Assembly: GCF_002217435.1 (NCBI RefSeq)
Contig: NZ_MUHF01000019.1
Coordinates: forward strand, 301,769-365,768
DNA: 64,000 nucleotides
Source of the DNA: Flavobacterium reichenbachii
GTDB lineage: Bacteria > Bacteroidota > Bacteroidia > Flavobacteriales > Flavobacteriaceae
Direction of reading: 5' to 3'
A program made the translations under genes and the position numbers. Below the pieces are notes generated by a model. It saw nothing but the letters and a program-made list of their open reading frames with translations, made no database searches and was not told the origin of the DNA. Positions 4,952-58,591 of the stretch are shown piece by piece; within the stretch, counting starts at the first letter, position 1; every line of letters begins with the position of its first letter.

Positions 4952-5947
4952 CTATGACTTCAAATCTCTAAACTCCTTCAAAACTTCATCAATAACCCAA
5001 GTGGTTCTCGCGCCAGAAATTCCTTTTGACGGCGAAGCTCCTTCATTGCCCAATAGTTCTGCAACGACAGTTTCTATAAACGGCTGCTGAATATGAAGCG
5101 GATTTTCGATAGTAATGCTTTCTTTTTCACCGTTTATATATTGAACATGAATTGGGTCATTTCCAAAGGTAGAAAAAGAAATTCTTCCTTTATCGCCGAC
5201 AATTTCAGTATTGTCATAACGCTCAAAACTGGCAAAATTCCATAATCCAGAACCGTGAACTCCATTTTCGAATAAAAAAGACATCGAAACAGTATCTTCA
5301 GCAGGGTAAGCCAAAAGCTGAGAGCTCGCATGTCCGCGAACAGATTTTATAGGCCCAAAAACAAAATCTAAGAAATCTAAAGTATGGCAAGCCAAATCAA
5401 CAAATATTCCGCCTCCGGAAATATGAGGCATAACTGTCCAGGGAAGATTAATTTCGTCGTCGTAACGTTCTTCAAACGGATGATATAAAACACAGTTTAC
5501 ATGTCTTACAGTTCCGATTTTGCCTTCGTCAATAAGTTCTTTTATTTTTAGGAATCTTGGCAGGCTTCTTCTGTAATAAGCAACAAACAACGGTACATTG
5601 TTTTCTTTGCAGATGCTGATCATTTCGTTGCATTCTTCAAAAGTTAAAGCCATTGGTTTCTCTACATAAACTGGTTTTCCTGCTTTAGCGCATAAAATAG
5701 TATATTCTTTATGAGAAGATGGAGGTGTTGCGATATATACAGCGTCAACATCGGGATCATTTATTAAATCTGCTGCATTTGAGTACCATTTGGGAACATT
5801 GTGACGCTTGGCATAATCTTCGGCCAATGCTGCATCTCTGCGCATCACGGCAACCAGAGCTGAATTTGGTGCTTTCTGAAATGCGGGACCGCTTTTTACT
5901 TCGGTAACATTGCCACAGCCTATAATTCCCCAATTTATAATTTTCAT
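4952..5947 (-). CDS. Gfo/Idh/MocA family oxidoreductase
   Basis: A 331-residue cytoplasmic NAD(P)-dependent oxidoreductase, probably acting on a sugar, inositol or related polyol. The N-terminal Rossmann fold begins NWGIIGCGNVTEV (glycine motif at about 8-13), followed by AVYIATPPSSH and the family hallmark EKPMALTFEEC (about 95-105), whose Lys is a known catalytic residue. The C-terminal alpha/beta dimerisation domain holds GGGIFVDLACHTLDF, with the His typical of the active site. Length is normal for the family. No sugar-catabolic neighbours allow a substrate assignment. A TAAATTTG -7 box lies at 5968-5975 on the same strand, upstream of the ATG. Confidence 0.93.
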   Translation of the reverse strand: MKIINWGIIGCGNVTEVKSGPAFQKAPNSALVAVMRRDAALAEDYAKRHNVPKWYSNAADLINDPDVDAVYIATPPSSHKEYTILCAKAGKPVYVEKPMALTFEECNEMISICKENNVPLFVAYYRRSLPRFLKIKELIDEGKIGTVRHVNCVLYHPFEERYDDEINLPWTVMPHISGGGIFVDLACHTLDFLDFVFGPIKSVRGHASSQLLAYPAEDTVSMSFLFENGVHGSGLWNFASFERYDNTEIVGDKGRISFSTFGNDPIHVQYINGEKESITIENPLHIQQPFIETVVAELLGNEGASPSKGISGARTTWVIDEVLKEFRDLKS

Positions 5948-6003
5948 TTTTGATCTTTTTAGTTATTCAAATTTAAGAGAAAAGAATTGCTTAAAAAAGG
6001 TTT

Positions 6004-6109
6004 GCCACGAATTACACGAATTTTCACGAATTGCTTATTTTCAATTGGCTTAAAAAAATAAGCCACGAATTCACGAATTTAATTGGTGTAAATTCGTGTA
6101 ATTCGTGGC
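6004..6109. repeat. CCACGAATT-family intergenic inverted repeat
   Basis: Perfect 20-nt inverted arms at 6004-6023 and 6090-6109 (outer GCCACGAATTACACG), with a further direct copy of the arm at 6062-6080. It can fold into a long hairpin between two minus-strand genes. A second copy is at 33047-33128. Confidence 0.85.
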
Positions 6110-6131
6110 TAAAAAAATTTAAGCGTTAGTC

Positions 6132-8240
6132 TTACTTTTTAGGCAAAGCTTTAAAACCCATATTATAAAGTGTGAAAGCTTGAATATCTACATTTTCCTG
6201 AATGCTTGCAGCAACAGATTTTCCTGCTCCATGACCTGCTTTTACGTCAATACGAATTAAAACCGGATTCTCTCCTGCTTGTTTTTCTTGTAATTCTGAA
6301 GCAAATTTAAAACTGTGTGCCGGAACAACACGATCATCATGATCGCCAGTTGTAACCATAGTTGCAGGATATTTAGTTCCTTTTTTAACGTTTTGAACAG
6401 GAGAATATCCTTTTAAATATTCAAACATTTCTTTACTGTCTTGTGCAGTTCCGTAATCAAAAGCCCATCCTGCACCAGCTGTAAAAGCATTGTAGCGTAA
6501 CATATCCATAACTCCAACTGCCGGAAGCGCTACTTTCATTAAATCTGGGCGCTGTGTCATTGTTGCCCCAACTAGTAAACCTCCGTTTGAACCTCCGCGA
6601 ATTGCTAAGAAATCTGAAGAAGTGTATTTTTGAGCAATTAAATATTCGCCTGCAGCTATAAAATCGTCAAATACATTTTGTTTTTGCAGTTTTGTACCCG
6701 CATCATGCCATTTTTTCCCGTATTCACCGCCGCCTCTTAAGTTTGCTACAGCATAAACACCTCCGTTTTCTAACCAAACAGCATTGGCAATACTGAAACT
6801 TGGTGTCAGACTGATATTAAATCCTCCGTAACCGTATAAAATGGTTGGATTTTTACCGTCTAATTTCAATCCTTTTTTATAAGTAATGATCATCGGGATT
6901 TTAGTTCCGTCTTTAGAAGTGTAAAAAATTTGTTTAGACTCGTAATCTTCACTTTTAAAATCTACTTTAGGTTTTTGGTATATTTCAGATTTTCCAGATT
7001 TTGGATCAAAAGAAAAAATAGTTCCCGGAGTAGTGTAATTTGTAAAACTGTAATAAATTGTTTTTTCTTTCTTTTTGCCTCCAAATCCGGCTGCAGTTCC
7101 AACAGAAGGAAGTTTAATTTCGCGAACTAATTTTCCGCTGTAATCATATTGTTTTACCAGCGAAACCGCATCTTTTACATAATTGGCAAAGAAATAACCT
7201 CCACCCGTAGAAGGAGCTAAAACATTTTCGGTTTCTTTAATAAAATCCTTCCAGTTTTCTGGTTTCGGAGCACTTACATCAACTGTTACGACACGTTTAT
7301 TAGGAGCATTCAAATCAGTATCAATAAATAATTTGCTTCCTTCGTTTTCGATAATGTTGTTTTCACTATTAAAGTTGTCCACAATAGTTACAATCGGACT
7401 GTTTGGTTTTGTCAAGTCTTTAATGTACAATTCGTTTCCGTAAGTAGAATTTGCAGCAGAGATTACCAGATAATGATCATCTTCTGTAACGTAACCGCCA
7501 ACATATCTTCTTTTTTCTTCTGCTCCAAAAATTACTTTATCTTGTTTTTGTGAAGTTCCTAATTTGTGGAAATACAATTTATGCTGATCTGTTTTTGCAG
7601 ACAATTCACTTCCTTTTGGTTTTTCGTAGCTTGAGTAATAAAAGCCTTCGTTGCCCAGCCAGGATACACCGCTGAATTTTACATCAACCAAAGTATCTTC
7701 TAAAACTTTTTTAGACAAAGCATCAATAATAATAACTTTTCTCCAATCGCTTCCTCCTTCAGAAATAGCGTAGGCAGCTTTTGTTCCGTCTTTAGAAAAA
7801 TCCAAACCTCCAAGAGAAGTTGTTCCATCTTTTGAGAAGGTGTTTGGATCTAAAAAAACTTCGTCTTTGCCATTATCTCCTTTTCTGTAGATAACAGATT
7901 GATTTTGCAGACCATTATTTTTAGAGTAATACGTGTGTTTTCCTTCTATAAAAGGCGCACTTATTTTCTCAAAATTCCAGAGCTTTTCCATTCGCTTTTT
8001 AAGTTCTTCGCGAAACGGAATTTTATCTAAATAACCATAAGTTACTTCGTTTTGAGCTTTTACCCAAGCTCCGGTTTCAGCAGATTTATCGTCTTCAAGC
8101 CAGCGGTAAGGATCGCTTACTTTTGTATCAAAATAAACATCTACAGTTTCGCCTTTTTTAGTTTCAGGATACTGAATTTTGTTCTGACCAAATGAAATTC
8201 CTGCAGTTGTAATTGCCATTATAAGAAATGTTTTTTTCAT
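6132..8240 (-). CDS. Prolyl oligopeptidase family serine peptidase (S9A), secreted
   Basis: A 702-residue peptidase that would cleave after proline in short peptides. It has a signal peptide (MKKTFLIMAITTAGISFG), so it is probably periplasmic. The N-terminal DPYRWLEDD motif and seven-bladed propeller are followed by an alpha/beta-hydrolase domain from about residue 430. The nucleophile Ser lies in GGSNGGLL near residue 550, the Asp in GDHDDRVVPAHS near 633, and the His in KAGHGAGKS near 670, so the triad is complete. Length is typical of S9A enzymes. It is preceded by its own promoter and seems monocistronic. A role in peptide nutrition is the likely function, by inference. Confidence 0.95.
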   Translation of the reverse strand: MKKTFLIMAITTAGISFGQNKIQYPETKKGETVDVYFDTKVSDPYRWLEDDKSAETGAWVKAQNEVTYGYLDKIPFREELKKRMEKLWNFEKISAPFIEGKHTYYSKNNGLQNQSVIYRKGDNGKDEVFLDPNTFSKDGTTSLGGLDFSKDGTKAAYAISEGGSDWRKVIIIDALSKKVLEDTLVDVKFSGVSWLGNEGFYYSSYEKPKGSELSAKTDQHKLYFHKLGTSQKQDKVIFGAEEKRRYVGGYVTEDDHYLVISAANSTYGNELYIKDLTKPNSPIVTIVDNFNSENNIIENEGSKLFIDTDLNAPNKRVVTVDVSAPKPENWKDFIKETENVLAPSTGGGYFFANYVKDAVSLVKQYDYSGKLVREIKLPSVGTAAGFGGKKKEKTIYYSFTNYTTPGTIFSFDPKSGKSEIYQKPKVDFKSEDYESKQIFYTSKDGTKIPMIITYKKGLKLDGKNPTILYGYGGFNISLTPSFSIANAVWLENGGVYAVANLRGGGEYGKKWHDAGTKLQKQNVFDDFIAAGEYLIAQKYTSSDFLAIRGGSNGGLLVGATMTQRPDLMKVALPAVGVMDMLRYNAFTAGAGWAFDYGTAQDSKEMFEYLKGYSPVQNVKKGTKYPATMVTTGDHDDRVVPAHSFKFASELQEKQAGENPVLIRIDVKAGHGAGKSVAASIQENVDIQAFTLYNMGFKALPKK

Positions 8241-35438: not shown

Positions 35439-36092
35439 ATGAATCCTAAAATCTTACTATATTCTTTGGCCATTAGTTCTGTATTTCTTGTTTCGTGCAA
35501 AAAAGAATTAGAACCTCAGGAAAGCACATCAAATTCTGAATTGATTAGACTGGGACTGGCAAAAGATACGACCAAAACGGCAACGCCTGTTGCGCAGGCA
35601 TTACCTGCCAACCCAAATACCGTTTTAAGCGATACCAAAGGTTTAAATCCGGCACACGGACAACCTGGACACCGCTGCGATATTGCTGTTGGCGCACCAT
35701 TAAATTCTGCTCCTGCGCAAACTACTGCAGCGCCGGCGCAGACGGTTCAGGTAAATCCGAATCAGCAGCAGCAAACAGTTGTAACGACAACAACGGCACA
35801 ACCTGTAAAAACAGCTAAAGGAATGAATCCGCCGCACGGACAAGCGGGTCACAGATGTGATATTCCGGTTGGAGCGCCTTTAAATTCTCCAGCAGTAAAA
35901 ACTACTGCAGCTTCAACACCGCAGAGTGGAACGGCGACACAAAATTTTACAGTTACACCGCCTGCAGGTTCCAATGTTCCGGCATTGTTGAGTACAGAAA
36001 CCCAAGCAGTAGCAGAAGGAATGAATCCAGCTCACGGACAACCAGGTCACAGATGTGATATTGCAGTTGGAGCTCCGCTGCCAAAATCGTAA
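35439..36092 (+). CDS. Lipoprotein with triplicated HGQxGHRCDI motif
   Basis: A 217-residue protein with a lipoprotein signal peptide (lipobox LVSC, Cys at about residue 20). Three near-copies of a 20-residue unit occur at nt 35640-35699, 35820-35879 and 36018-36077. The unit reads G-M/L-N-P-x-H-G-Q-x-G-H-R-C-D-I-x-V-G-A-P-L, and each holds two His and one Cys. The linkers are Ala/Thr/Gln/Pro-rich and look unstructured. The unit resembles a motif that I believe recurs in Bacteroidetes proteins. A metal- or heme-binding role is inference. A TATATTTG box lies at 35409-35416. Confidence 0.8.
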   Translation: MNPKILLYSLAISSVFLVSCKKELEPQESTSNSELIRLGLAKDTTKTATPVAQALPANPNTVLSDTKGLNPAHGQPGHRCDIAVGAPLNSAPAQTTAAPAQTVQVNPNQQQQTVVTTTTAQPVKTAKGMNPPHGQAGHRCDIPVGAPLNSPAVKTTAASTPQSGTATQNFTVTPPAGSNVPALLSTETQAVAEGMNPAHGQPGHRCDIAVGAPLPKS

Positions 36093-36169: not shown

Positions 36170-36484
36170 TTAGTGTGCGTTTATTTTTTCGTAAGTTGTA
36201 GTAAGAACTTTTTTAGCTTTTGCCAAAGCACCGCTAAAAGCTTTTTCAAGAGTGTCTGAATGTTCTGTAACAGTGATTGGCTGTAATTTTACAGGACGAA
36301 TTTCGATTACGCATTTCTTATCATTAAGGCTGAATTTCTCGCCGTTTTCGTCTCCAAAATGCACTTCTACGCGAGTTATTTTATCTTCAAAGCGGTCTAA
36401 GCTTTTTTCTATCTCTGCAGAAAAATACGATTCTAATCTTGCGCTTCCTTCAATGTTTTTGTCGGTGTTGATTTGTACTTTCAT
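36170..36484 (-). CDS. hpf: Ribosome hibernation-promoting factor (HPF/RaiA family, short form)
   Basis: A 104-residue cytoplasmic protein that binds the ribosomal decoding region and inactivates ribosomes in slow growth. The beta-alpha-beta-beta-beta-alpha fold is visible: MKVQINTDKN, LESYFSAEIEKSLDRFEDK, RVEVHFGDENGEKF, KCVIEIRPVKLQPITV and DTLEKAFSGALAKAKKVL. It is the short form without the long-HPF dimerisation tail. It has its own promoter. The basic C-terminal helix fits the family. Confidence 0.88.
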   Translation of the reverse strand: MKVQINTDKNIEGSARLESYFSAEIEKSLDRFEDKITRVEVHFGDENGEKFSLNDKKCVIEIRPVKLQPITVTEHSDTLEKAFSGALAKAKKVLTTTYEKINAH

Positions 36485-36513
36485 AATCGGATTATATTTT
36501 AATGATTGTTTCT

Positions 36514-36545
36514 CAAAGCTATTTTTTTTAGATTAGAAAGCCAAA
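36514..36545 (-). promoter_or_regulatory. Promoter of hpf
   Basis: Minus strand: TTTG (36545-36542), 20-bp spacer, TAGCTTTG (36521-36514); the -7 box ends 29 nt before the ATG. Confidence 0.65.
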
Positions 36546-36689
36546 CGAGTTAAGGAAACATTATGAAATTTTTTAATGATGTGTTTATCAATTTTGTAAT
36601 TTAGAAGGAAAAAAAAATTGAATTTAGTCTTCTAAATATAAAAAATAAGAAAAAACTTATAATTAATTTAATTTTTAGTATTTTAGCAG

Positions 36690-36835
36690 TCCTAAACGTT
36701 AAAAATTATGACTTCAAAAAAATTCTTGCCCGCGTGGTATGGTGGCGGTATTGGAAACAACTGCAACGCTTTTAACGGCGTAGGACACCTTAGCTATGCG
36801 GGTTTTATATTTTTCCTAAACGTTAAAAATTATGA
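36690..36835 (+). repeat. GC-rich hairpin element between 22-nt direct repeats
   Basis: Identical 22-nt sequences at 36690-36711 and 36814-36835 (core CCTAAACGTTAAAAATTATG) are spaced 124 bp apart, the second running into the ATG of the 76-residue gene. Between them is a GC-rich block. GCCCGCGTGGT (36728-36738) pairs, with wobbles, with 36793-36803, and GGTG (36741-36744) pairs with CACC (36786-36789). A nested inverted set is also visible: TTTTAAC at 36770-36776 with GTTAAAA at 36822-36828, and TAGGA at 36781-36785 with TCCTA at 36814-36818. This resembles an integron attC or a small non-autonomous element; no integrase is in the window. Confidence 0.6.
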
Positions 36836-37062
36836 GTACAAACACCCTTTCAAAAGAAACAGAATTAAGATTAGCCGATCTTTTCAACAATACAATTGAT
36901 TCGAAAAGTATGGCAAAAACAATCCGACAAGTAAATTATCTGCTTGCCTTGAATGTAATGAAAAATGAAATCGGACAGCCCGAGACCATAAATCTCGAAG
37001 ATAATTTCTACTGGTTGAATAAATTAGCAGAAACTCTTGATCCTTATCTGGATGCTGAATGA
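36832..37062 (+). CDS. Conserved small protein (76 residues), paralogue of the gene at 58358
   Basis: A 76-residue soluble acidic protein, no signal peptide and no cysteine. The centre MAKTIRQVNYLLAL and the C-terminus LEDNFYWLNKLAETLDPYLD are almost identical to those of a second gene at 58358-58591, so the fold is conserved and helical. I know of no function. The start is set by the ATG at 36832 that lies in the second direct repeat. The gene has its own terminator and is not in an operon. The GC-rich hairpin element sits directly upstream and may control or have inserted before it. Confidence 0.85.
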   Translation: MSTNTLSKETELRLADLFNNTIDSKSMAKTIRQVNYLLALNVMKNEIGQPETINLEDNFYWLNKLAETLDPYLDAE

Positions 37063-37075
37063 TTTTATAGAATTG

Positions 37076-37103
37076 AAAAAGCCACTTGAGAGAGTGGCTT
37101 TTT
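37076..37103 (+). terminator. Terminator after the 76-residue gene
   Basis: AAAAAGCCACT (37076-37086) pairs perfectly with AGTGGCTTTTT (37093-37103), followed by T. Confidence 0.9.
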
Positions 37104-37259
37104 TGTGTTCTTATAAAAATAATAATAGCTCTGATGGGATAAAAAATTGAAGAACAGCAGGAAATAGCTTCTTAAAATTTCAATCTTTGTCGATCTACTA
37201 GTGCGATTCCTCATTCTTCGGAATGACAAGATTATGGGATTTGTGGTTTATTTAGGATT

Positions 37260-39719
37260 TTACTTCCCCTTCTTCCCCCATTTAATCTTCATCTTTCCTT
37301 CTTCATCTACAGCAAGTAAATGCAATACAATGCCGCGTTCTCTTACAGCATCGCGTTCTTCCTTGCTTTCTATTTGAGCATCGTTTTTTGAATTACGAAG
37401 CGGAACCGTCAGTGCGAGATTAGTGCCTCGGCCGAAAGAATAAATGCCTTCTATATCAAAGTTGAGAACGCTGGAACTTATCGTAAGATCGTTAATGTCT
37501 ATTTGTTCGCCCCGAAGTGTAAGATCACCCGATAAATCGCTGAAAGTTATGTTTTTGACATCACGAAACGGAAAAGCAAACTTACCAACCTTTACTATTG
37601 GATCAAAATTGATCAAAGCTCCCTGATTGACATTAAATTTTAAATTCCCGCGCATAGAATTTACAATCAAATCGCCTTTAGCGCTCATCAATCCCGTAAC
37701 ATTGGCGTTGCTGCTGAGTTTTCCTTTTATATTTCTTGGATCAAAAGATTTAATCTGGAAGTTGTTGAAGGATTTTAAAAAACTCGCAATATCTACGCGG
37801 TTTACCTGCGCTACAGAACTAAAAATGTAATAATTTCCTTTTGGCTCGATAGCACCATTAAATGTTATTGTGCCTCCGGAAGTTTGTACGCTTCCGTTTT
37901 TGAGCAATAATTTGGAGTCCAGCATTTGCAGCGTTGCTCTGGTATTGGTCGCGGTTAGCGCGCCGTAATTGAGATTATCTGCTTTTAGGTTGATGATTAC
38001 ACTGCATTTTTCGATTACCGATTTCATCTGGTTCGAGAAATTGACATTCTTTTTGGCAGATTTTTGCTGTGTGGCTGCAGACTGTGATTTTCTCAACACG
38101 CCCAAAAATTGTTTTACATCGATATTTGGGCAGTAGATATTCCAGTTTACGACCATTTTCTCTGGTGCGTCGTAATAGAGATTTAAGAAATTATCTATTT
38201 TTCCGTTGATCTGAATGATGTTTTTCTTGTGTTTGTACGCTATTTTTTTAATATAAAGCGCCTGTTCTGTAAACGACAATTGTACCGCGGTTTTCTCTGC
38301 GCGAACGTTTTTAGGAAGATAATCAAACGTGGCGTCTTTTATATCGACATCGCCAATAAAACGCGGTTTGGTAATGTATAAATCTACAATATCAAACTGA
38401 AATTTTAAATTGGCTCGCGCATGACCGCTTTCAAAATGAAACATTTTTTCATTCATCATTTCATTTAGTTTCGTAACATCAAAATCAGAATTTACAATTC
38501 CGGTTGCAATGGGTTTTTCTAAATTGCTAATTACAGCCTGCGGAATTTTTAGCGGAATGTTTTCATAATCGCCGCTAAAATGCGTGAGAACAACTGCCGA
38601 ATTAGCATCGTTAAAGCCGTTGGCAGGTTTAAAATTATTGGTAAAAATACCGTTGAAACTGCAATTGGTAAACAAACCGTCGGGAATAGTAAGTTCGTTG
38701 TTTTTAATAACCGCCTGCACTACTATTTTAGGATCGCCTTCGGCATTAAAATCACCATTTATAGCACAGTTTACTTTTATTGGTTTCTTTAAATTGAACT
38801 GATCCAGTTTAGTGCTGATATTTCCGGACAATAAATCTGAGGCACTTTTCCATAAAATAGAAGTATTGATATTGATTCCGAACAGCGCATTTTTTCCAAT
38901 ATTAAAATAGGCTTTAATATCAAATTTATCTGAGCCGATTTTGAGTTTTTTGGTTTCGATATTTAGAAGCTGTTTTTCATCAATATAAGCAATATCAAAA
39001 TTGCCTTCGAGTTCTCTGGCTTTGGCAAAACTTCCATGAACGGTATTAAACGCCAGACTGTTTATTTTGGTTTTCAGATATAAATTGGTCTTCCAGTCTT
39101 CATCGTCAAAATTTATTTTCGATTCTAATTTTACAACTTCAAAATCAAACAATTTATGACCTAAATGATTGTCTATTGTTAAATGTACGTTGTTGAGGTT
39201 TATATCGTCAATTGTAGTTTCGCGTGTTTCGCCTGGAGCAATTTTTTTCTTTTTTGGTTTAAAGATATTTACATTAGAATAACCATTTTCGGCTTTGTAA
39301 ATATAAATGTCGGCATCATTAATCAGGATTTTATGAATGTTGATTTCGTTTTGCAGTAAACTCCAAATGTTTAAGCGAGCTTCTATTTCTTTGGCTTTTA
39401 GTAAAGTATGTTTGTGAATGGCCCACTGATTGTCTTTAATCTCGACTTCTTTTAAGGCTAAAGTAAAATTGGGAAAACCAGTGAGAAACTTGTACTGAAA
39501 ATCTTCGACATGAAATTTCCCGTTTATATTCTCATTGATTTTGATATTGATTTTGGCAATAATTTCGGTTTTATTCTGATTAAAATAGAGTGCTAGTCCG
39601 CCACAGGCAAGTAAAACAAAGACAATTAAACCTAAAACGAATAAACCGAATCGTTTTAAGTATTTCCTGAAAACAGCTGTCTCAAGAAAAGTTTGTATTT
39701 GATGTACTATTTGTGGCAT
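37260..39719 (-). CDS. AsmA-family inner-membrane-anchored envelope protein
   Basis: 819 residues from the ATG at 39719 (MPQIVHQIQ); the open frame begins with TTG at 39728. One transmembrane helix (FGLFVLGLIVFVLLACGGLALYF, about 27-49, given in part) anchors it in the inner membrane. The long periplasmic part has repeated beta-rich AsmA-like segments, for example KEVEIKDNQW, NEINIHKILINDADIYIY, and the C-terminal AsmA-type region SGDLTLRGEQIDINDLTISS. Family members act in outer-membrane lipid or protein homeostasis, the long ones as probable lipid conduits. It converges on the small-protein gene and is divergent from trxA. Confidence 0.85.
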   Translation of the reverse strand: MPQIVHQIQTFLETAVFRKYLKRFGLFVLGLIVFVLLACGGLALYFNQNKTEIIAKINIKINENINGKFHVEDFQYKFLTGFPNFTLALKEVEIKDNQWAIHKHTLLKAKEIEARLNIWSLLQNEINIHKILINDADIYIYKAENGYSNVNIFKPKKKKIAPGETRETTIDDINLNNVHLTIDNHLGHKLFDFEVVKLESKINFDDEDWKTNLYLKTKINSLAFNTVHGSFAKARELEGNFDIAYIDEKQLLNIETKKLKIGSDKFDIKAYFNIGKNALFGININTSILWKSASDLLSGNISTKLDQFNLKKPIKVNCAINGDFNAEGDPKIVVQAVIKNNELTIPDGLFTNCSFNGIFTNNFKPANGFNDANSAVVLTHFSGDYENIPLKIPQAVISNLEKPIATGIVNSDFDVTKLNEMMNEKMFHFESGHARANLKFQFDIVDLYITKPRFIGDVDIKDATFDYLPKNVRAEKTAVQLSFTEQALYIKKIAYKHKKNIIQINGKIDNFLNLYYDAPEKMVVNWNIYCPNIDVKQFLGVLRKSQSAATQQKSAKKNVNFSNQMKSVIEKCSVIINLKADNLNYGALTATNTRATLQMLDSKLLLKNGSVQTSGGTITFNGAIEPKGNYYIFSSVAQVNRVDIASFLKSFNNFQIKSFDPRNIKGKLSSNANVTGLMSAKGDLIVNSMRGNLKFNVNQGALINFDPIVKVGKFAFPFRDVKNITFSDLSGDLTLRGEQIDINDLTISSSVLNFDIEGIYSFGRGTNLALTVPLRNSKNDAQIESKEERDAVRERGIVLHLLAVDEEGKMKIKWGKKGK

Positions 39720-58040: not shown

Positions 58041-58271
58041 CTATTTCAAAGGAAAATCAAGCAATTCTTTAGGTTCAATATCTAAAGCATTTGCAATTTT
58101 TACAAGAGTTTTTACACCAGTATTTAATTTAGCTACTTCTATTCTTGCTATTTGAGATTTAGTAATATTACAATCATCGGCTAAACCTTGTTGGGATAAG
58201 CCTTTCTTTTCACGTAACTGTCTAATGTGAATTCCGAGATTTACAAGAAAAGTTTCTTCTGAAATATTCAT
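58041..58271 (-). CDS. XRE-family transcriptional regulator (76 residues)
   Basis: A 76-residue Cro/C1-type HTH protein. The recognition region is LSQQGLADDCNITKSQIARIEV (split at the helix turn), followed by TLVKIANALDIEPKELLDF. It probably represses or activates the divergent small-protein gene and its own operon with the YcxB-like gene. The ATG is clear. Length matches stand-alone XRE proteins of antitoxin type, but no toxin partner is evident. Confidence 0.93.
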   Translation of the reverse strand: MNISEETFLVNLGIHIRQLREKKGLSQQGLADDCNITKSQIARIEVAKLNTGVKTLVKIANALDIEPKELLDFPLK

Positions 58272-58357
58272 ATTTCAAAAGTCACAAGATTTATTTTGTT
58301 CATGTAAGCAAATTTGCCTACAAATTATTATATTTGAAGAATATAAAAAATAAGACA

Positions 58358-58591
58358 ATGACTACAGAAAGCTTTTCAAAAGAGGTTGAAACAAGACTTA
58401 AAGATTTTTTTATTGATGTTATGGATCCCAAAGATATGGCAAAGACAATTCGACAAGTAAATTATGTTCTTTCTTTATGTTTAATGCGGGGCTGCGAAAC
58501 TGCAGAATCTGAAATAAAAAATATTGAAGATAATTTTTATTGGCTCAATAAATTAGCTGAAGTCTTAGATCCTTATTTGGATGTTGATTAA
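58358..58591 (+). CDS. Conserved small protein (77 residues), paralogue of the gene at 36832
   Basis: A 77-residue protein started at ATG 58358 (MTTESFSKEV); the open TTG at 58334 is not needed. MAKTIRQVNYVLSL and IEDNFYWLNKLAEVLDPYLD align with the first copy almost without change. It differs in the region between them, which carries two Cys. A TATATTTG box lies at 58329-58336. It is divergent from the XRE gene with 86 bp between. Function unknown. Confidence 0.85.
   Translation: MTTESFSKEVETRLKDFFIDVMDPKDMAKTIRQVNYVLSLCLMRGCETAESEIKNIEDNFYWLNKLAEVLDPYLDVD

Follow-up and report, generated by a model that had tools for sequence, protein, structure and literature searches.

Positions 36690-36835 of the window, the 64,000-nucleotide stretch of the Flavobacterium reichenbachii genome analysed here, very probably hold a leader with an antisense RNA of the C4 type. 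It would be related to the region that controls c4-icd-ant in phage P1, but located on a chromosome, and most likely silences the small protein encoded behind it. The RNA belongs to an established family and lies between two copies of its target. Its loop covaries with both copies, and a small-protein gene follows it in a recurrent layout.

A c4-2 RNA between two direct repeats

The 22-mer TCCTAAACGTTAAAAATTATGA is present in two exact copies at 36690-36711 and 36814-36835 with a spacing of 124 bp, as the initial annotation had reported. This pair is the longest exact repeat within 36400-37300 (500 dinucleotide shuffles: mean 10.7, maximum 15) and lengthens to 29 nt at 93% identity. The first 15 nt of the 22-mer are found in the own genome only in the two window copies. 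The downstream copy includes the ATG of a 76-aa ORF at 36832-37062, which had also been noted. The GC content was 43% at 36700-36799 compared with 17-23% in stretches starting at 36500-36600, in agreement with the GC-rich core described before. Folding of 36726-36810 gave -33.9 kcal/mol (z -4.1, with 0/200 shuffles equally stable) and reproduced the outer and inner stems of the annotated hairpin. As a separate observation, a lipoprotein-like ORF at 35439-36092 carries three copies of a GMNPAHGQPGHRCDIAVGAPL-like motif.

The core at 36728-36805 (+ strand), consisting of a closing stem, an inner stem and two hairpins, matched the Rfam c4-2 RNA (RF02944) over the full length of the model (positions 1-79) with 74.2 bits and an E value of 7.3e-15, above the gathering score of 41 bits. 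The structured leader RNA, which the initial annotation had named as one of its alternatives, is borne out by this match. In Rfam, c4-2 is grouped in clan CL00128 together with C4 (RF01695) and c4-a1b1 (RF03163). It is typed as 'sRNA' with no stated mechanism, and its 79-position model spans the RNA alone, so that the target repeats and the protein partner lie outside it. The family was reportedly defined by Weinberg et al. in NAR in 2017. The RNA family is already known. Our survey of the c4-2 literature other than the defining paper turned up one row of a table in the paper on Rfam 15; among the titles listed, none dealt with this arrangement, and no published target code, partner protein or stand-alone form was found. 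Part of it may be in print.

Complementarity of the RNA to both repeats

In the window, the b' loop TTTTAACG (36770-36777) and the a' segment TAGGA (36781-36785) are exactly complementary to the b box CGTTAAAA and the a box TCCTA of both repeats, all on the + strand. The upstream copy contains a1 at 36690-36694 and b1 at 36697-36704; the downstream copy contains a2 at 36814-36818 and b2 at 36821-36828 and ends in the start codon region, with 4 nt between b2 and the ATG. The inner six bases of b' and four of the five bases of a' are unpaired in the predicted fold. Two features of a C4-type control region are found here: the RNA carries an a' and a b' that can pair with the a and b boxes on either side of it, and the downstream boxes lie where translation of a small ORF begins.

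The analysis was extended to 131 distinct c4-2 places, taken mainly from the best-scoring among the listed matches, so that weak or decayed RNAs are under-represented. The predicted duplex energy between the antisense part of each RNA and its own flanks averaged -15.8 kcal/mol upstream and -13.9 kcal/mol downstream, compared with -10.6 and -9.3 kcal/mol for the flanks of other loci, and none of 2000 permutations reached the values of the own flanks. The loops were analysed at 123 places, the remaining 8 having no recognisable a' motif, and comprised 58 different strings with 45 distinct inner loops. The longest perfect complement of the loop had a median length of 7 on either side. Complementary runs of at least 7 to the own copy were seen upstream in 91/123 and downstream in 97/123 places, whereas loops of other loci with a different string gave such runs in 4.3% and 5.9%. 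Both sides had runs of at least 7 in 86/123 places and neither side in 21/123. Similar results were observed at a single genomic site, beside hpf, where the 36 places comprise 16 strings with 13 inner loops. Runs of at least 7 were found there in 27/36 on each side, compared with 3.8% upstream and 7.6% downstream for foreign loops.

Pairing was also scored position by position, with the box picked as the best match in the flank and foreign loops handled identically as the control. Loop positions 4-8 were paired with each copy in 37-39 of 39 unique triples (G-T pairs counted), and a given position changed among A-T, T-A, G-C and C-G, using up to four kinds of Watson-Crick pair; positions 1-3 were looser. 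Seven of eight positions were reached by 79% and 84% of the own loops, compared with 3.4% and 5.6% of the foreign ones.

The a' segment is nearly invariant, with TAGGA in 112/123 places. Its exact complement TCCTA was present upstream in 94/112 and downstream in 62/112 of them (control windows, 20/784). Among the rare forms, TAAGA was matched upstream in 4/4 and downstream in 1/4 cases, TAGAG downstream in its single case, and TAGAA and CAGGA in 0/6 by exact match. The covariation of a with a' is thus thin and weaker than that of b with b'. Six further places carry a diverged RNA subtype in which the RNA pairs with the start codon region of the gene: the starts TGCAAAA, TGACAAAA and TGACTAAA each match their own RNA, and in L013 and L014 the RNA varies in step with the first codons, even where the change is a synonymous one (Thr). 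L015 is an exception, its own start being matched by 6 and that of L013 by 8.

A cis-acting riboswitch or attenuator, in which the hairpin would sense a ligand or terminate transcription and the repeats would be parts of alternative folds of one transcript, is unlikely. Such a reading would be consistent with the position of the RNA in a 5' leader, the short U-run after the closing stem, the ability of the b' loop to pair in cis with either repeat, and the Rfam type 'sRNA', which states no mechanism. However, it is the pairing loop that varies freely in the c4-2 RNA, the predicted fold of the whole leader retains the c4-2 structure, and the homologous C4 of P1 acts as an antisense RNA according to the accessible text of PMC5320573 and PMC8198154.

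Selection that would insulate the copies within a genome from one another was also considered and was unsupported by two tests. Runs of at least 7 occurred in 8/92 same-genome pairs, the same as between genomes; a shared loop string was seen in 0/92 same-genome pairs and in 2.1% of pairs between genomes (one place, L006, carries no genome label). For hpf loci against other loci, runs of at least 7 were found in 13.7% of 51 same-genome pairs, compared with a permuted mean of 12.6%, and 1437 of 2000 permutations were at or below the observed value.

A one-gene unit with variable occupancy

A -7-like box, TATTTTAG, lies at 36679-36686 (+ strand) with one mismatch to TAnnTTTG, which we take to be the Bacteroidota -7 promoter box. 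A box of the form TAnnTT(T/C)(G/A) was present 75-30 nt before the RNA in 117/131 c4-2 places compared with 79/783 control windows, and in 108 places it ends 4-5 nt upstream of the a1 CCTA. The window is among the 14 places without the full box and has the one-mismatch form only. From the position of the box, transcription would start at or just before the upstream repeat. On the other side, a terminator-like stem of 14 pairs with a T-run, found by consensus scan at 37074-37105 (+ strand), closes the one-gene unit and is followed by an AsmA-like gene on the other strand; no antirepressor gene was found behind the unit in the window. Neighbouring second c4-2 copies, some without an ORF or a promoter box, were noticed at L047/L064, L048/L066, L119, L076, L078 and L103 and are possible decoys or decay products.

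The upstream repeat might instead be the translated start of a leader peptide, in the window a 63-aa ORF at 36708-36899 that runs through the RNA and would control it. An ATG is present in the 40 nt upstream of the RNA at 102/131 places, and the upstream ORF of the window does read through the RNA, but the remaining 29/131 places have no ATG there. The frames relative to the main ORF are mixed (36, 27 and 22, with 17 unassigned), and the upstream ORF stops ahead of the RNA in 11 cases, within it in 30 and past it in 61. We consider a leader peptide very unlikely in the window, and as a general feature it is ruled out by the mixed frames.

The 76-aa protein (36832-37062, + strand) is predicted to form a three-helix bundle (AlphaFold pLDDT 82.9). 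Sequence searches of Pfam, NCBIfam, PHROGs, PADLOC and PDB returned nothing convincing, Foldseek against PDB gave no match at E 0.001 or better, and the protein search found no relatives in named phages and plasmids. The leader DNA gave two short matches to phages (E 0.4).

An ORF of at least 45 aa lies right behind the RNA in 118/131 places, a few of them spurious frames by eye, and is lacking in 13/131; the C-terminal motif of the window family was found in 101/131. The association was also seen when starting from the protein: among the 80 best of its 314 relatives, 69 have c4-2 just upstream of the gene. The RNA match is absent from 11/80 protein-found loci, among which by eye two carry decayed-looking RNAs (L178, L202) and two a divergent HTH-like gene (L167, L183). 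At L178, L182, L186, L190, L194, L200 and L202, the c4-2 leaders ahead of the same protein family look decayed or strongly diverged by eye but retain the outer stem.

The own genome holds two c4-2 copies and three members of the protein family. One of these members, at 58358-58591 (+ strand) in the window, has no Rfam c4-2 match and lies divergent from a Cro/C1-type HTH gene (HTH by Pfam) at 58041-58271 (- strand), with a near-perfect palindrome at 58303-58322 between the two genes. The presence of either a dedicated antisense RNA or an adjoining Cro/C1-type gene suggests that the protein must be kept off. The small ORFs behind c4-2 that fall outside this family make up separate groups (L007/L012/L013/L014/L015/L067; L023/L033/L122; L089; L110). 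They are not recognisably related to the window protein, and the c4-2 module seems to have changed partners. Viral relatives of two of these other groups were searched for and none was found.

The unit is narrowly distributed. Matches to c4-2 at E 0.001 or better were found in 74/398 sampled Flavobacterium genomes, 71 of them over the curated cut-off, with up to 8 per genome. In the phylum-wide sample, 11/395 genomes were positive, comprising 10 Flavobacterium genomes including the own genome and one weak, below-cut-off match elsewhere. The small-protein family was found in 1/170 genera (12/395 genomes) of the phylum sample and in 1/235 genera (2/249 genomes) of the family sample.

An hpf homologue lies within the flanks of about 1.5 kb in 36/122 c4-2 loci. 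In a sample of the genus, an hpf match was found in 21/41 genomes, and c4-2 lies beside hpf in 4 of these 21. Among the 17 without it, the one with comparable flanks, genome G015 (L209), matches on both sides and lacks the unit. The missing piece comprises the promoter, both repeats, the RNA, the ORF and the terminator, and the 488 nt of the empty site contain neither TCCTA nor CCTAAA. At L134 and L154, the protein is kept beside hpf without an RNA match.

These data bear on the main proposal of the initial annotation, a mobile cassette or integron attC-like element whose repeats were made by insertion. The variable occupancy of the hpf site, including the empty site with matching flanks, and the several copies per genome agree with mobility, and the variable occupancy is the part of the idea that stands. 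The cassette reading itself fails because the core matches a known RNA family. The repeats lie inside the unit that is present or absent, differ by locus and track the RNA loop. The annotation had also proposed a comparison of relatives for one leftover repeat copy; at L209 none is left, the whole unit from promoter to terminator being gone. Integron attC boxes follow GTTRRRY/RYYYAAC, and by eye the window arms depart from this pattern at the terminal Y (GTTAAAA) and the terminal R (TTTTAAC). Both annotated arm pairs, TTTTAAC/GTTAAAA and TAGGA/TCCTA, are present but reflect RNA against target, the upstream repeat taking part equally, and not recombination boxes. Repeats as insertion ends are contradicted and a cassette of this kind is extremely unlikely; a mobile unit with other ends may exist.

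Proposed mechanism and comparison with known systems

We propose that the C4-type leader works as follows. One promoter would give a transcript that carries, in order, a1/b1, the c4-2 RNA of about 78 nt, a2/b2 ending at the AUG, the 76-aa ORF and its own terminator. The c4-2 RNA would fold with most of the b' loop and the a' segment unpaired, and both could base-pair with their counterparts b2 and a2 directly ahead of the AUG. Ribosomes would then be kept from entering, and the small protein would normally be off. Repression by c4-2 is proposed by analogy with C4 of P1. The same RNA could also bind a1/b1, close to where the transcript begins, and might in this way regulate newly made transcripts in trans or limit itself.

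The annotated order in the P1 record is promoter P1c4, a1, b1, C4 RNA, a2, b2, icd (73 aa) and ant1, with the a1 and b1 sites called 'putative' by the annotation itself, and both C4 and c4-a1b1 were found in P1 by Rfam. A sub-threshold isrK RNA match (35.1 bits, gathering score 50) was seen over the P1 a1-b1 region (L123, 48230-48311).

Two viral contigs (L204 and L205) carry distant homologues of the window protein. In L204, positions 5735-6853 contain a C4-like stretch, the small-protein homologue and an AntA antirepressor gene in a P1-like order. The homologue is 34% identical over residues 13-76, and the AntA/AntB antirepressor gene lies 4 nt behind it (AntA Pfam E 1.6e-25). Since icd precedes ant1 in P1, the place of the small protein in at least one viral contig corresponds to that of icd. 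The approximately 80 nt before the homologue can form a closing stem and two hairpins (z -2.3, 2/200 shuffles equally stable) and contain an 11-nt perfect complement to the gene start, a length reached in 1/5000 shuffles of a region chosen post hoc; the complementary matches on the upstream side are weaker. This candidate RNA was not recognised by Rfam and is put forward on its fold and complement. L205 has a Bro-N gene two ORFs upstream of the homologue, and no C4-like RNA was found there by Rfam or by a purpose-built model.

Judging from the one contig, L204, the chromosomal units are most likely descendants of a phage immunity operon and would have kept its RNA and small-protein gene but lost its antirepressor gene; the opposite direction, from chromosomal unit to phage operon, may also apply. 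More speculatively, Flavobacterium may have turned a phage immunity switch into host-owned, individually addressed units, each silencing by its own code a small protein that controls growth or phage. Such a unit would fire once its RNA is diluted, destroyed or titrated by an incoming phage or plasmid. This extension is doubtful. If it were true, the loop, the upstream copy and the downstream copy would have to change together at the same site, which needs a mechanism of its own.

For the c4-2 RNAs, for which no stated function was found, the C4-type leader offers a mechanism that can be tested, together with a target and a protein partner, and it places the C4-type layout in stand-alone chromosomal units of Bacteroidota. 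The 45 natural loop versions, most with matching targets, form a set for studying how a three-way pairing code changes without loss of function; the same series is useful for the insulation of codes within one cell.

In type I toxin-antitoxin systems, an antisense RNA prevents a small protein from being translated, and several copies occur per genome. The c4-2 unit as proposed here resembles them in both respects, but its RNA is encoded on the strand of its target and forms part of the target's own leader. The C4-derived sRNAs of Acinetobacter baumannii likewise have many copies per genome and a variable specificity loop; they are related to phage C4, and the accessible text describes no fixed cis target or small-protein partner for them (PMC5320573).

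P1 offers the closest comparison. In the accessible text, C4 of P1 and P7 is processed by RNase P to an RNA of about 77 nt and the b' loop of P1 C4 covers the ribosome-binding site (PMC5320573), and the P1 operon is described with Icd as an inhibitor of cell division (PMC8198154). Unlike P1, the window unit is chromosomal and stand-alone, has no antirepressor behind it and exists in many pairing-code versions, and c4-2 was over the cut-off in one genus only among the samples searched. The sequences of the small protein and Icd show no resemblance (BLASTP E 5.8; hhalign probability 0.1%), so that only the layout is held in common with P1. Within that layout, both have a promoter, a1-b1, the RNA, a2-b2 and an ORF of about 75 aa in the same order, both RNAs consist of a closing stem and two hairpins with b' in a hairpin loop and a' behind it, and in the targets of both the a box precedes the b box.
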